Assembly (NCBI GenBank): GCA_029260075.1
Contig: JAJDDY010000037.1
Coordinates: 1-33,174 of the forward strand
DNA length: 33,174 nucleotides
DNA from: Phycisphaerae bacterium
GTDB lineage: Bacteria > Planctomycetota > Phycisphaerae > UBA1845
Direction: 5' to 3'
The position numbers were made by a program, and so were the translations under genes. Each line of letters opens with the position of its first letter. Within the stretch, counting starts at the first letter, position 1. The notes under the pieces are model-generated. The model ran no database searches, was not told the origin of the DNA, and worked only from the letters and a program-made list of their open reading frames with translations. This document shows positions 1,141 to 5,389 of the stretch, in pieces.

Positions 1141-1304
1141 TGCTGGATCGGCAATCGAATGACGCGTGCATGTGGGGTGCGTTCCTCTACGCCCTCAGTT
1201 TGCCCGTCAAGCCCGTTCCCCGGACGGCGATAAGGCGGGGGTCCAGCACAGTAGGCGCCAGGGGCGACAATCGGGAGCAAGCCCGAAGGCGAGGTGCTTC
1301 ATGA
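1141..1304 (+). CDS. Possible short leader ORF before the methyltransferase
   Basis: ATG 1141 is preceded by a strong GGAGGAG Shine-Dalgarno sequence and opens a 54-aa frame (start MLDRQSNDACMWGAF). The frame ends in an ATGA overlap with the methyltransferase start at 1301, an arrangement that suggests translational coupling. The Arg-rich, low-complexity C-terminal half does not look like a folded domain and I recognise no family. It could be a decayed upstream gene or a chance frame under a good ribosome-binding site. Confidence 0.3.
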
Positions 1305-2554
1305 GCGGTCGCATGGGCCACCGGAAGCGATTGATCTGCATCAGCGCTGCCAACATCCGCCAGAACCACCTGTACCTCACGGGGCACACCGACTTCTTTC
1401 CGGCGGACTCGTTCGGACCTTCTTCGAGCAAGAAAGGAACCGGGAAACTGCTCAGGCTAGATGTCGTCGGTCTTGATGCCCCTGTTCTAACCGACATTCC
1501 ATGCGACGCTCGCACGGGTAAGCCTCGTCGTTTCTTCCGTCGTCGGTCATGGGTGCGGGAGTTCTTTGCCAAGCACCGGGTCCAGCCGGGCGATGTCGTC
1601 GTGGTCGAGAGAGTCACCCCGCACAAGTACCGAGTCAGCCCTTTTGAGGTGACAGGCGAACGACAACACAACGGCCTCTGTCACTTCGGCAAGATTCCCG
1701 AAGGCGATGGGCCTACGATCATCGAGCTTTTTGCGGGCGGCGGCGGTATGGCGCACGGTTTCAAGGACGCTGGCTTCCGCACAGTGTTCGCTAACGAATG
1801 GGACAAGCACGCCTGCGATACCCTGCGGGCAAACATCACGGACCGCGCGCTGAACTGTGCCATTCAGGAAATCGAGTCCTTCCCCACAGCGGATATTGTC
1901 GTCGGCGGGCCACCCTGCCAAGGATTCAGCAACCTCGGCGAGCGCGTCCCGAACGATCCGCGAAATCAACTCTGGCGTCATTACATGCGCTGCGTGGAAC
2001 AGGTCCGGCCCAAGGTCTTCCTTCTTGAGAATGTCCAGCCTCTTCTGCGCTCGGCAGAGTATCAGGAACTGCGACGGCTTGCCGAGTCATTCGGATACGA
2101 GGTTGAGGCACGGGTCTTGAACGCAGCGGACTACGGCGCCCCCCAACAGCGGCGACGCGCGATTGTCATCGGCTCGCTGGTTGGAACGCCATCGTTTCCG
2201 AAGCCAACGCATGTCGATCCAGCGAAGCGCGACCTGCAATCGGTGGACCTCCAACCGTGGCGCACCGTCCGTGATGCAATCGGCCACATGCCCCTGGCAC
2301 CCACGGAAACGGATTGGCACATAGGTCGTAACCCGACACCGAAGTCGCTCAAGCGCTATCGTTGTGTTCCCCCCGGCGGAAACCGCTGGGATCTGCCACG
2401 GCGTTTGATGCCTGAATGCTGGAAAAAGAAGACGAAGGGCGGCACCGATCTGTTCGGCAGGCTATGGTGGGACCGACCGTCCGTTACTATACGAACGGAG
2501 TTCTACAAACCTGAGAAGGAACGGAGATGCACTCAGACACAGACCGCCGCATAG
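1301..2554 (+). CDS. C5-cytosine DNA methyltransferase with N-terminal DNA-binding-like domain
   Basis: The 417-aa product transfers a methyl group from S-adenosylmethionine to cytosine C5 in a specific DNA site. Residues 15-115 (NHLYLTGHTDFFP, FFRRRSWVREFF, GDVVVVERVTP) resemble the B3/EcoRII-N-like pseudobarrel found in front of some type II methyltransferases. The catalytic domain starts at about 138: motif I FAGGGG (144-149), motif IV GGPPCQGFS with nucleophile Cys206, motif VI ENV (243-245), motif VIII QQRRR (282-286), and the target-recognition region to about 395. The start at 1301 has GGCGAGG seven bases upstream; ATG 1313 is an alternative. After FYKPEK (401-406) the frame slips. One base added near 2517 restores a poor motif IX-like reading (RRIVRRKAAGRL), but motif X (QxGNxVP) is absent. 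The enzyme is thus C-terminally truncated and may be inactive. First gene of the R-M cluster. Confidence 0.85.
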   Translation: MSGRMGHRKRLICISAANIRQNHLYLTGHTDFFPADSFGPSSSKKGTGKLLRLDVVGLDAPVLTDIPCDARTGKPRRFFRRRSWVREFFAKHRVQPGDVVVVERVTPHKYRVSPFEVTGERQHNGLCHFGKIPEGDGPTIIELFAGGGGMAHGFKDAGFRTVFANEWDKHACDTLRANITDRALNCAIQEIESFPTADIVVGGPPCQGFSNLGERVPNDPRNQLWRHYMRCVEQVRPKVFLLENVQPLLRSAEYQELRRLAESFGYEVEARVLNAADYGAPQQRRRAIVIGSLVGTPSFPKPTHVDPAKRDLQSVDLQPWRTVRDAIGHMPLAPTETDWHIGRNPTPKSLKRYRCVPPGGNRWDLPRRLMPECWKKKTKGGTDLFGRLWWDRPSVTIRTEFYKPEKERRCTQTQTAA

Positions 2555-2633
2555 TGCGTCGCAAAGCGGCTGGACGCCTCTGTCAATTCGATCCGTCCGT
2601 GTCCGCTAGATGGCATCCACTGAGGCGCATCCA

Positions 2634-3407
2634 ATGACTCCTCGGGCGGAGAAGTATGGTGCTCCCTGGTCACGCGACGAACTCATACTCGCGTTCGAGC
2701 TGTACTGCCGGATTCCCTTCAAAGCCACGAGAGCTTCCAATCCCGATGTGCAGCAACTTGCCACGTTGCTGAAGCGAACACCGGCGGGAGTTGCTCGCAA
2801 ACTCGGCAACTTCGGCGCGTTCGACCCTACTCTCAAGAAGCGCGGCATAACGGGCCTTGTTCATACAAGCAAGCTTGATCGCGCGATCTGGGACGAGTTC
2901 CACCGTGACTGGCCCACTCTGGTTTCCGCGGCATTCAAACATCGAGAAGTTCTTGAGTGTGAAATGAAGGTCACGCGAAAGGAATTGCGGCACCCTGCGG
3001 GGCCATCCGAACGTGTGATCGTGACGCGCCGACGTTTGCACCAGTCGTTCTTTCGCGAGGCAGTACTCAGTAGTTACGAGCAGTGTTGTTGTGTGACAGG
3101 TGTTCCGGTGATTGAAACCCTCATCGCGTCCCATATAATTCCATGGAGCGTCAACCGGAGGCTTCGTGCGGATCCTACGAACGGTCTTTGCCTGACAGCG
3201 ACGTTCGATCGACTCTTTGATACAGGACTGATGTGCATTGAGGACGACTTATCGATTCGTCTCTCACACCGAGTTCTACGCTACCACCGGGATCCTGTTG
3301 TCCGCCTTATCGGCGTTTACCATAAGAAACCCCTGCGCCCGCCCACTCGGTTCTCGCCCCGCAGTGACTGCCTACGATGGCACCGCGACAACGTTTTCGT
3401 TGGCTAA
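2634..3407 (+). CDS. HNH endonuclease (HNH_2-like), probable restriction component
   Basis: This is a 257-aa protein with an intact C-terminal HNH nuclease module. C151-C153 are followed by TGVP, then ASHIIPW (His167 as probable general base), NGLCL (183-187) and FDRLFDTGL (191-199). That spacing is the usual one for HNH_2-type nucleases that act as restriction or defence enzymes. The N-terminal 60 residues (WSRDELILAFELYCRIPF, TPAGVARKLGNFGAFD) form a helical domain seen in front of similar nucleases, possibly for DNA binding. ATG 2634 is preferred over ATG 2610 because GAGG lies eight bases before it. The gene sits between the methyltransferase and a broken restriction-enzyme gene, so it is either the effective nuclease of the system or a later insertion. 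Confidence 0.75.
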   Translation: MTPRAEKYGAPWSRDELILAFELYCRIPFKATRASNPDVQQLATLLKRTPAGVARKLGNFGAFDPTLKKRGITGLVHTSKLDRAIWDEFHRDWPTLVSAAFKHREVLECEMKVTRKELRHPAGPSERVIVTRRRLHQSFFREAVLSSYEQCCCVTGVPVIETLIASHIIPWSVNRRLRADPTNGLCLTATFDRLFDTGLMCIEDDLSIRLSHRVLRYHRDPVVRLIGVYHKKPLRPPTRFSPRSDCLRWHRDNVFVG

Positions 3408-3418
3408 CGGAGAATGAT

Positions 3419-4045
3419 ATGAAATCGGAAAGGTGCGGAATAAGGAAGTCCCAATTGCAGCAGCGAGCGACGGATTGTGTGGATGCCATGGGAGACATCT
3501 TCTGGGACGCGCATTCGTGGACGCGCCCGGGCGAAGAATACTCCGAGCCCCAAGCCGTCGCTATCAACGATGTGACGGATGCAATGACGGGCCTTGTGCG
3601 ATCGCTTGGTGTTCAGGTCGATCTCGACGTGCAGGACCTACCAAGTCACGTCTTGCGAAAGTAACATTGCGCGTATTACCGTTTGGCGTCTGGTCATCCT
3701 GCATCGCGCAATGATCCAAGCGTCCTTCATGCGGCCCTTCCTTGCAGAACGATCCGAAGCGACCGGGCGCAGAACACGCGGACTGAAGCCCTGAACTTGG
3801 TGCGCCACCGAAAAGGCAACGCCCCGCACATCGTTGTTGTCACGCTTGAGCCGCTCCCTCTGAGGCTTGCCTCGATTGCAATGGGGACGGGAGACATTGA
3901 CTGCACCTACCATGCCGCGTTGCACGAGTTACTTGCCGGCGCGGCCGAAGTCGGTCGGGACGATCAGCTCGAATGTCTACGAACGCTGGTGGACGGCCAA
4001 CGGCTTCGTGACGTCAGTGATCTGCCGCTCGACTTGGCGATCTGA
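3419..4045 (+). pseudogene. Type II restriction endonuclease-like gene, broken by two compensating frameshifts
   Basis: Reading 3419-3660 in one frame gives MKSERCGIRK...DIFWDAHSWTRPGEEYSEPQA. Moving to the frame beginning at 3642 gives SNIARITVWRLVILHRAM and ASFMRPFLAERSEATG. Returning to the first frame near 3775 gives TEALNLVRHRKGNAPHIVVV, EPLPLRLASIAMGTGDID, CTYHAALHELL and a C-terminus RLRDVSDLPLDLA. The three pieces join into one plausible protein of about 208 aa. Its C-terminal half resembles, from memory, restriction endonucleases of the NgoPII/NgoBV type, which cleave double-stranded GC-rich sites. GGAG at 3409 precedes ATG 3419, 12 bases after the HNH gene. As written the gene stops at 3663 (TAA) and cannot give the full protein. 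The family name is tentative; the frame reconstruction is seen in the sequence. Confidence 0.6.
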
Positions 4046-4061
4046 GTAAGGTCGTTGGAAC

Positions 4062-4469
4062 ATGGACACGCTCACCGCTGAACAACGCAGTAGAGTCATG
4101 TCGCGCATTCGCGGCAAGGACACTCAGCCGGAACTCGCGGTGCGCAGCTTGGCGCACAGGCTGGGATTCCGGTTTCGATTGAATCGGAAAGACCTGCCCG
4201 GCAAGCCCGATCTTGTCTTTCCCCGGCTACGCAAAGTGATCTTCGTACATGGATGTTTTTGGCATACGCACTCATGCCGTCGTGGCCAATCCACACCGAC
4301 AACCAACGCGAAGTTCTGGAAGACGAAGCGGCAGTCGAACGCCGTCCGAGACCGCAGCAACCTTCGCGCACTTCGGCGAGCAGGATGGAAGGTGCTGGTT
4401 GTTTGGGAATGCCAGATTCGCAAACTCGGTTCGCTTGAGAAGCGGCTGACGACCTTCCTTGCGAAGTAG
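4062..4469 (+). CDS. vsr: Vsr very-short-patch mismatch endonuclease
   Basis: This 135-aa protein has the full length of the Vsr family. Vsr nicks next to T:G mismatches that arise when 5-methylcytosine deaminates, starting very short patch repair; it normally accompanies a C5-methyltransferase gene. Visible landmarks are the N-terminal DTLTAEQRSRVMSRIRGKDT, the catalytic core LPGKPDLVF with Asp50, FVHGCFWHTHSC with the zinc-binding and catalytic His/Cys residues, KFWKTKRQSN, and GWKVLVVWECQIRK at the C-terminus. No frame disruption is seen, unlike its two restriction neighbours. It starts 17 bases after the broken restriction gene and probably closes the operon. Its presence implies that the methyltransferase has been active at some time. 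Confidence 0.95.
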   Translation: MDTLTAEQRSRVMSRIRGKDTQPELAVRSLAHRLGFRFRLNRKDLPGKPDLVFPRLRKVIFVHGCFWHTHSCRRGQSTPTTNAKFWKTKRQSNAVRDRSNLRALRRAGWKVLVVWECQIRKLGSLEKRLTTFLAK

Positions 4470-4665
4470 TTGGCCGTGAAATGGTTGCTTCGCTATCACG
4501 ACCTGCTATCTGCATGGCCGCGAACAAGTGTGCGGCGGCGGGGTCCAGGGTCCTGAGAGCCGTGGCCCTCTCCTCGTTCGGCACGGGCGCGTGGATGCCG
4601 TCGCAAAAAACGGGTATGATGTGTTGAGTGGGTGGCTGGTTTCGCCGCTCACGGGAGGTTCTGAA
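4470..4665. promoter_or_regulatory. Intergenic, possible promoter for mntA-hepT
   Basis: The stretch between vsr and mntA contains TATGAT at 4615-4620, a fair -10 hexamer. Only a weak -35 candidate (TGGATG, 4592-4597) lies 17 bases upstream. A GGGAGG ribosome-binding site precedes ATG 4666. No other feature was recognised. Confidence 0.25.
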
Positions 4666-4986
4666 ATGGTCGCTCAGCAGATTCTGGATCAAGCAACCCA
4701 ACGACTGGTCGAGCGATTCGCGCCGACCCGGATCATCCTGTTCGGATCGCAGGCACGCGGGACGGCCGACGACCGTAGTGATGTTGATCTGCTCGTCGTC
4801 TGTGCGGTCGCCGGCCGGAAGCGCGACCTGATGGTGGCAATGGACCGCGCTCTTGGTGGACTCGGAATTGCGCGGGATGTGATCGTGCTGACGCCGGAGG
4901 AGTACGAGCGGGATCGCAACATTCCAGGCACCGTGGCCCGTCCAGCTTCGCTCGAAGGGAAGGTTCTGTATGACAGCGCCGCCTGA
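4666..4986 (+). CDS. mntA: MntA-type minimal nucleotidyltransferase (antitoxin)
   Basis: This 106-aa protein of the DNA polymerase beta-like minimal nucleotidyltransferase fold carries the signature FGSQARGTADDRSDVDLLVV: Gly27-Ser28 then Asp39 and Asp41. Asp71 in ARDVIVL is placed as the third carboxylate. Proteins of this kind act as antitoxins in MNT-HEPN pairs; well-studied members modify the HEPN partner by adding AMP to a tyrosine. The start at 4666 is chosen for GGGAGG about nine bases upstream; a longer frame from 4528 has no such site. The 3' end overlaps the HEPN gene by 17 bases, so the two are co-translated. It lies directly beside the R-M cluster, consistent with an accessory defence region. 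Confidence 0.88.
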   Translation: MVAQQILDQATQRLVERFAPTRIILFGSQARGTADDRSDVDLLVVCAVAGRKRDLMVAMDRALGGLGIARDVIVLTPEEYERDRNIPGTVARPASLEGKVLYDSAA

Positions 4987-5389
4987 CGAAATCGTAGCCA
5001 AGGTCCGCGAGTGGGCCGGACACGCCGACGACGATCTGCGAGTCGCCGAGCATACGCTTACCCTGCCGGAAGAATGTCCCTATCGCCTCGTAGCCTATCA
5101 CGCCCAGCAGTGCGCCGAGAAGTACCTCAAAGCCTTCCTCGTGCTTCGCGGTATCGACTTCCCCTTCACGCACAACATCGCACGGCTGCTGGAGCTTTGC
5201 TCCGAACACGCTGGCTGGACCGACGCCATCAAGGATGCCGAAGAGTTGACACCTTTCGCAATAACGGCCCGCTATCCGGGTGACGACGAACCCGTGAGCG
5301 AACCAGAAGCCCGCAGGGCCATCAAAACCGCAGCGCATGCGCGCGATACGGTTCGCACAGCCCTCGGTGCGGAAAATGTCATCTTGTAG
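4970..5389 (+). CDS. hepT: HEPN-domain protein (HepT-type toxin)
   Basis: This 139-aa all-helical HEPN protein starts inside the end of mntA. The HEPN core reads AYHAQQCAEKYLKAFLVLRG (about 42-61), followed by FTHNIARLLELC, a typical pattern for HEPN partners of minimal nucleotidyltransferases. HEPN toxins are usually ribonucleases using an RX4-6H motif. R39-L-V-A-Y-H44 fits RX4H by spacing, but in many active HepT toxins the motif is nearer the C-terminus, so I cannot say whether this is the active site. Some members of this HEPN branch have no known RNase activity. The pair is most simply a toxin-antitoxin or phage-defence module. Confidence 0.85.
   Translation: MTAPPDEIVAKVREWAGHADDDLRVAEHTLTLPEECPYRLVAYHAQQCAEKYLKAFLVLRGIDFPFTHNIARLLELCSEHAGWTDAIKDAEELTPFAITARYPGDDEPVSEPEARRAIKTAAHARDTVRTALGAENVIL

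Follow-up and report, generated by a model that had tools for sequence, protein, structure and literature searches.

Does this Phycisphaerae bacterium carry a restriction endonuclease gene that two frame changes could repair, or only the remains of one? The question is raised by three short open stretches that lie downstream of an HNH gene on contig C31 of a 4.92-Mb assembly in 93 contigs; the window analyzed here comprises 33,174 nucleotides of this contig. To judge by sequence comparison, the locus is very probably a non-functional remnant of a type II restriction-modification (R-M) cassette, with the order methyltransferase (MTase), NgoMIV-type endonuclease, and Vsr, that was probably gained horizontally and then lost. 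A first-pass annotation had proposed that a type II endonuclease gene was lost in an R-M cluster beside an HNH gene, and this much holds: all that can be recognized is the C-terminal part, which has an in-frame stop codon before it and another residue in place of the catalytic lysine. The details of that annotation fare differently. The features of the locus are collected in Table 1.

Table 1. Features of the R-M locus and the evidence for each.
Feature	Position	Strand	Evidence
C5 cytosine DNA methyltransferase, broken	1301..2554	+	417-aa open frame stopping after motif IX, without motif X; PF00145 E 7.5e-49
Out-of-frame MTase remnant, 22 residues, precedes motif X	2527..2592	+	aligns to L003
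Apparently intact gene for an HNH_2 endonuclease (ATG at 2634; 257 aa)	2634..3407	+	PF13391 E 1.1e-10; PADLOC PDLC04132 E 3.3e-77
Open stretch (piece 1 of the first-pass annotation), no recognized relative, coding-like	3419..3661	+, frame 2	codon use, family searches
In-frame TAA between both frame-2 stretches	3662..3664	+	sequence, ORF lists
NgoMIV-family endonuclease C-terminal relic (piece 3, whose frame opens further upstream)	3701..4045	+, frame 2	PF09015 E 1.8e-51; PDB 1fiu
Vsr mismatch endonuclease, apparently intact, 135-aa open frame	4062..4469	+	TIGR00632 E 1.8e-42; PF03852

Soon after the Vsr gene, a nucleotidyltransferase gene (PF01909, 4666-4986) overlaps a gene for a HEPN-domain protein (PF05168, 4970-5389), a pair that we take to be a likely MNT-HEPN toxin-antitoxin. 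At 94-654 on the minus strand of the window, the open frame of an MscS-type channel holds the second and third domains only; the first may be absent or lie in another frame.

Which of the three open stretches belongs to an endonuclease?

The open reading frame lists give one stretch in frame 2 (3377 or 3419 to 3661), one in frame 3 (3588-3791), and one more in frame 2 (3665-4045), called stretches 1, 2, and 3 below. A single TAA is all that parts stretches 1 and 3, which share a frame, so no opposite frame changes are needed to connect them. The three pieces do exist, but their union into one protein is not supported: homologues match only one of them, stretch 3, which is an outcome that the first-pass annotation had named as refuting it. 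Neither stretch 1 nor stretch 2 has a match in Pfam, NCBIfam, or PADLOC at E values up to 0.1. Both also stay unmatched at E values up to 50 when profiles made from 62 NgoMIV rows are run, with no filters, against six-frame translations of the window (translated stretches of 15 aa or more). Stretch 2, for which no homologue was found, overlaps DNA that the homologues read in frame 2. The middle piece had been read in frame 3 with a switch back at 3770-3785, and this is contradicted by NgoMIV similarity that is already in frame 2 from about 3701-3713.

Stretch 3 is of the NgoMIV type. It scores 175.5 bits against PF09015, where the curated cut-off is 23.2, and the match covers model positions 162-275 of 275, far above chance level. 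It also matches the PADLOC model REase_II PDLC03527 (E 1.4e-38) and aligns to residues 174-286 of NgoMIV in PDB 1fiu. The C-terminus had been likened to NgoPII and NgoBV enzymes, and Pfam includes models of both; the Pfam scan (E up to 0.1) returned NgoMIV_restric alone for stretch 3, and neither NgoPII nor NgoBV for any of the three pieces.

How much of the enzyme is left?

The recognizable endonuclease is limited to the C-terminal 114 or so residues. Among 62 homologue rows, some of them near-duplicates, 72 columns are conserved in at least 90% of the rows. The surviving part contains 52 of these columns and keeps 49. The three changes affect one Ile and two residues of the SCK motif; of the latter, the catalytic Lys and the Ser, each found in 62/62 rows, are Arg and Pro in the window, and one residue adjoining the Lys position is missing as well. 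In NgoMIV, the catalytic lysine is K187. The remaining 20 conserved columns belong to the region upstream of the surviving part and include both residues of the PD motif (P and D). The column comparison aligned stretch 3 alone, and the absence of the N-terminal part rests on the six-frame search, on shuffled sequences, and on length. In the profile search, the region of the PD motif, whose P and D each occur in 61/62 homologue rows, appears in no frame of the window; in the all-frame search and the shuffle test, some 180 N-terminal codons are absent or unrecognizable. The available space agrees with this loss. From the ATG at 3419 to the C-terminal part at 3713 there are about 98 codons (about 0.3 kb) compared to about 180 or more in the intact genes of two other Planctomycetota loci, L003 and L006, a shortfall of some 80 codons.

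The active site of the CCGG family is described in PMC6344858 as PD...K...D/E, with D140 and E70 in NgoMIV, and the same paper gives an R-(D/E)R recognition motif for the family. The corresponding RSDR stretch is kept in the relic. The relic thus shares with NgoMIV (PDB 1fiu, 4abt; PF09015, CCGG family) its C-terminal region and RSDR; it differs in its N-terminal 180 or so residues, which are absent or unrecognizable, in that no PD was found, in the replaced Lys and Ser of SCK, and in the stop upstream. This copy is not expected to cut. For a repair by two frame changes, too little is left, given the N-terminal loss and the missing catalytic lysine.

The relic has also diverged more than its relatives. 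A tree of the C-terminal part was made from 107 columns and 63 aligned rows, of which 62 were long enough and 59 distinct, the window included. The window has the longest end branch of the 59, 1.12 compared to a median of 0.22. Its best identity to any homologue is 69%, whereas every homologue row is at least 72% identical to its nearest other row. At 107 columns, the tree is too short to place the relic with MTase-linked or HNH-linked genes.

What happened to the methyltransferase and the neighboring genes?

The MTase gene is damaged too. Over residues 1-408, its protein is 73% identical to the MTase of L006 (480 aa), and it has motifs I, IV, VI, and IX. Motif X (GNAVP), which L006 and L003 have, is absent; in the three plus frames of 2500-4199, the sole match to a GNAVP pattern is GNAP at 3815, inside the NgoMIV relic. 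Motif VIII was left unused since the simple pattern for it missed both the window and L003. In-frame homology stops at PEKER (2510-2524). The out-of-frame remnant that follows aligns to L003 with a score of 42, reached by 1/1000 dinucleotide shuffles, and the alignment to L006 stops short of it. Elsewhere in the genome, there are five further C5 MTase-like matches on contigs C36 (114736-117435) and C74 (1434-1934, 19879-20700); three of them lie close together on C36.

The HNH gene appears from its sequence to be open, conserved, and intact. Across 32 relatives, 38 columns are at least 85% conserved, and it keeps 36 of them; the core residues SHI, NG, and D..FD are present. The third motif position is Phe, which might suggest a dead enzyme, but the 32 relatives have H, Y, L, F, or A there, and that idea was dropped. 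The Vsr gene scores 144.4 bits against TIGR00632 (cut-off 97.85), over model positions 2-119 of 119.

Is the HNH gene the only nuclease of an R-M cluster, as had been suggested? The MTase is broken, Vsr is a second open nuclease gene, and in most loci with related HNH genes no relative of these R-M genes was detected, so this description is not supported as it stands. Matches to the HNH protein (E up to 0.001) occur in 103/392 genomes of the phylum, its own included, although many are weak or cover the HNH half only. In 24 of 32 loci with such a match, no relative of the window MTase, Vsr, or the NgoMIV part was detected nearby; in the other eight, an NgoMIV part is present in three, an MTase in three, Vsr in one, and both MTase and Vsr in one. 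These loci were not drawn at random: they comprise the best matches in the phylum and three loci that came from the NgoMIV searches. Most have about 1.5 kb of flank, and relatives of the window MTase, not other MTase kinds, were sought. In one locus (L014), a frame resembling an N4/N6-type MTase was seen by eye upstream of the HNH relative.

A mobile HNH gene with flanking repeats was considered and rejected: no direct repeat flanks the gene, and the one inverted pair that does is compatible with chance. This pair is a perfect 11-nt match at 2610-2620 and 3479-3489, and it may be fortuitous; by our own estimate about 0.2 such pairs are expected in 1.4 kb. A search of viral contigs returned no relative of the HNH protein. 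Plasmid records with an NgoMIV relative number 16; an HNH match occurs in 214, and in 5 of these it covers at least 80%.

Do intact cassettes exist elsewhere?

The same gene order, MTase-NgoMIV-Vsr, is found with full-length open frames of 480, 297, and 156 aa in L006 and of 484, 289, and 139 aa in L003; in L062, similarity searches match the same three genes. The MTase in L003 and L006 adjoins the endonuclease with no HNH gene between them, whereas the window has one. A Nitrospiraceae MAG locus (L007) resembles the window in another way, with a full-length HNH relative (43%) directly before NgoMIV. It differs in that its 10.3-kb locus has no relative of the window MTase and in that its NgoMIV frame is open, with PD and SCK. 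At 3730-5336 of that locus, the HNH gene overlaps the start of the NgoMIV frame, and the middle of NgoMIV is shortened.

The NgoMIV family is rare around this genome: 1/60 relatives, that one being the organism's own genome, and 8/392 genomes of the phylum, its own included. Such patchy occurrence fits a horizontal gain and later loss. Another NgoMIV gene (L060, L063, and L111; contig C35 of genome G298, reverse strand) looks like a second broken copy in the phylum. Model positions 1-38 and 39-274 match separately and one base out of step, a TAA is reported, and the remainder is 235 aa long.

NgoMIV recognizes GCCGGC, and by analogy an intact relative of the relic would be expected to cut the same site. 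R-M loss is rather frequent according to PMC4687349, which points to the many R-M genes in REBASE that are corrupted. Recognition-site avoidance serves in that paper as a trace of lost R-M systems; GCCGGC is not avoided here. In 679,113 bases of the 4.92-Mb genome (the window plus 40 stretches, L112-L151), GCCGGC has an observed/expected ratio of 0.87 and ranks 33 of 64 palindromes, so site usage gives no separate sign that an active system was resident for long. Three other sites, CTCGAG, GTGCAC, and CAGCTG, are very scarce in the same 679 kb (0.35-0.38 of expected), which might mean that further R-M systems have long resided in the genome.

Could the pieces be read differently?

The stretch before the stop codon is the counterpoint to a reading of decay, as a coding-like stretch of 243 nt sits in frame 2 where the N-terminus of the endonuclease would be. 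Its codon log-odds are +0.169 per codon, and the other two plus frames are negative. For the 12 codons at 3665-3700, the score is +0.25 in frame 3 and -0.24 in frame 2, which makes them more coding-like in frame 3. Both results favor a reading of the three pieces as a single diverged endonuclease gene with two opposite frameshifts, and by eye the LVxxLG and LPS of stretch 1 looked promising as an NgoMIV N-terminus. The scores are no better than those of shuffled sequences. Against a profile of 58 N-termini, 1448/2000 shuffles score at least as well as the real stretch (HMMER listed 1566 shuffles); against a profile of 13, 500/2000 do so (1552 listed); and in pairwise comparison to NgoMIV N-termini, 294/300 do so. 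Stretch 1 occupies the place expected of the N-terminal region with glutamate E70 and bears no better resemblance to it than shuffles do. With stretches 1 and 2 both lacking NgoMIV similarity, with frame-2 homology spanning 3713-3780, where the first-pass annotation read frame 3, and with the summed pieces too short for the NgoMIV family, we regard two frameshifts in one gene as highly unlikely. As another gene, stretch 1 finds nothing convincing in Pfam, NCBIfam, PADLOC, PHROGs (best E 0.17), plasmids, or 51 genomes of the family, where its best match outside the organism's own genome has an E value of 0.011 and 28% identity. It may come from another gene or be a piece of the endonuclease that has diverged strongly, and in the latter case it could be one that the profiles missed.

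Could an intact gene have been split by assembly or sequencing indels, leaving the organism with a working enzyme? The assembly is indeed fragmented, and indels had been offered as a cause. They are unlikely because some 80 codons are missing before the C-terminal part, because the Ser and Lys found in every homologue row are replaced, and because the MTase is damaged too, yet the HNH and Vsr genes nearby are open; an artefact is, on this evidence, most improbable. Hardly any more credible is the idea that the C-terminal frame (120 aa from the TTG at 3683) is still expressed as a non-catalytic DNA-binding protein. The frame is open, and the 49 conserved columns that it keeps include RSDR. However, its branch in the tree is the longest, it retains just part of the fold, and no homologue row is so short, the shortest open frames being of 227 aa (L048) and 235 aa (L015).

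How might the cassette have been lost?

Under the preferred reading, the remains of a lost R-M cassette, the 3' end of the MTase gene and the 5' end of the endonuclease gene would have disappeared when the HNH gene arrived, or through a deletion at that site, after which both relics would have drifted. That the entry of the HNH gene and the loss of both gene ends were the same event is plausible from the arrangement of the genes. A more elaborate history seems rather doubtful to us: a nuclease exchange caught part-way, in which the HNH gene, from a family often located apart from R-M genes, entered an MTase-NgoMIV-Vsr cassette, the methylase lost its end and the endonuclease its start in one step, and the HNH protein survives with no need of the methylase, for example, by cutting modified DNA, with Vsr being kept. 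HNH domains in modification-dependent enzymes are treated in a review (PMC12707154). In literature searches on HNH/Vsr neighborhoods and R-M decay, none of the papers listed dealt with the gene arrangement of this locus.

The locus is a case of ordinary R-M decay. The annotation should be corrected to an NgoMIV-type pseudogene and a broken MTase, neither a repairable endonuclease nor an active R-M system. If any part of the locus has functional interest, it would be the HNH gene alone, which is open and conserved and is flanked by two broken R-M genes.
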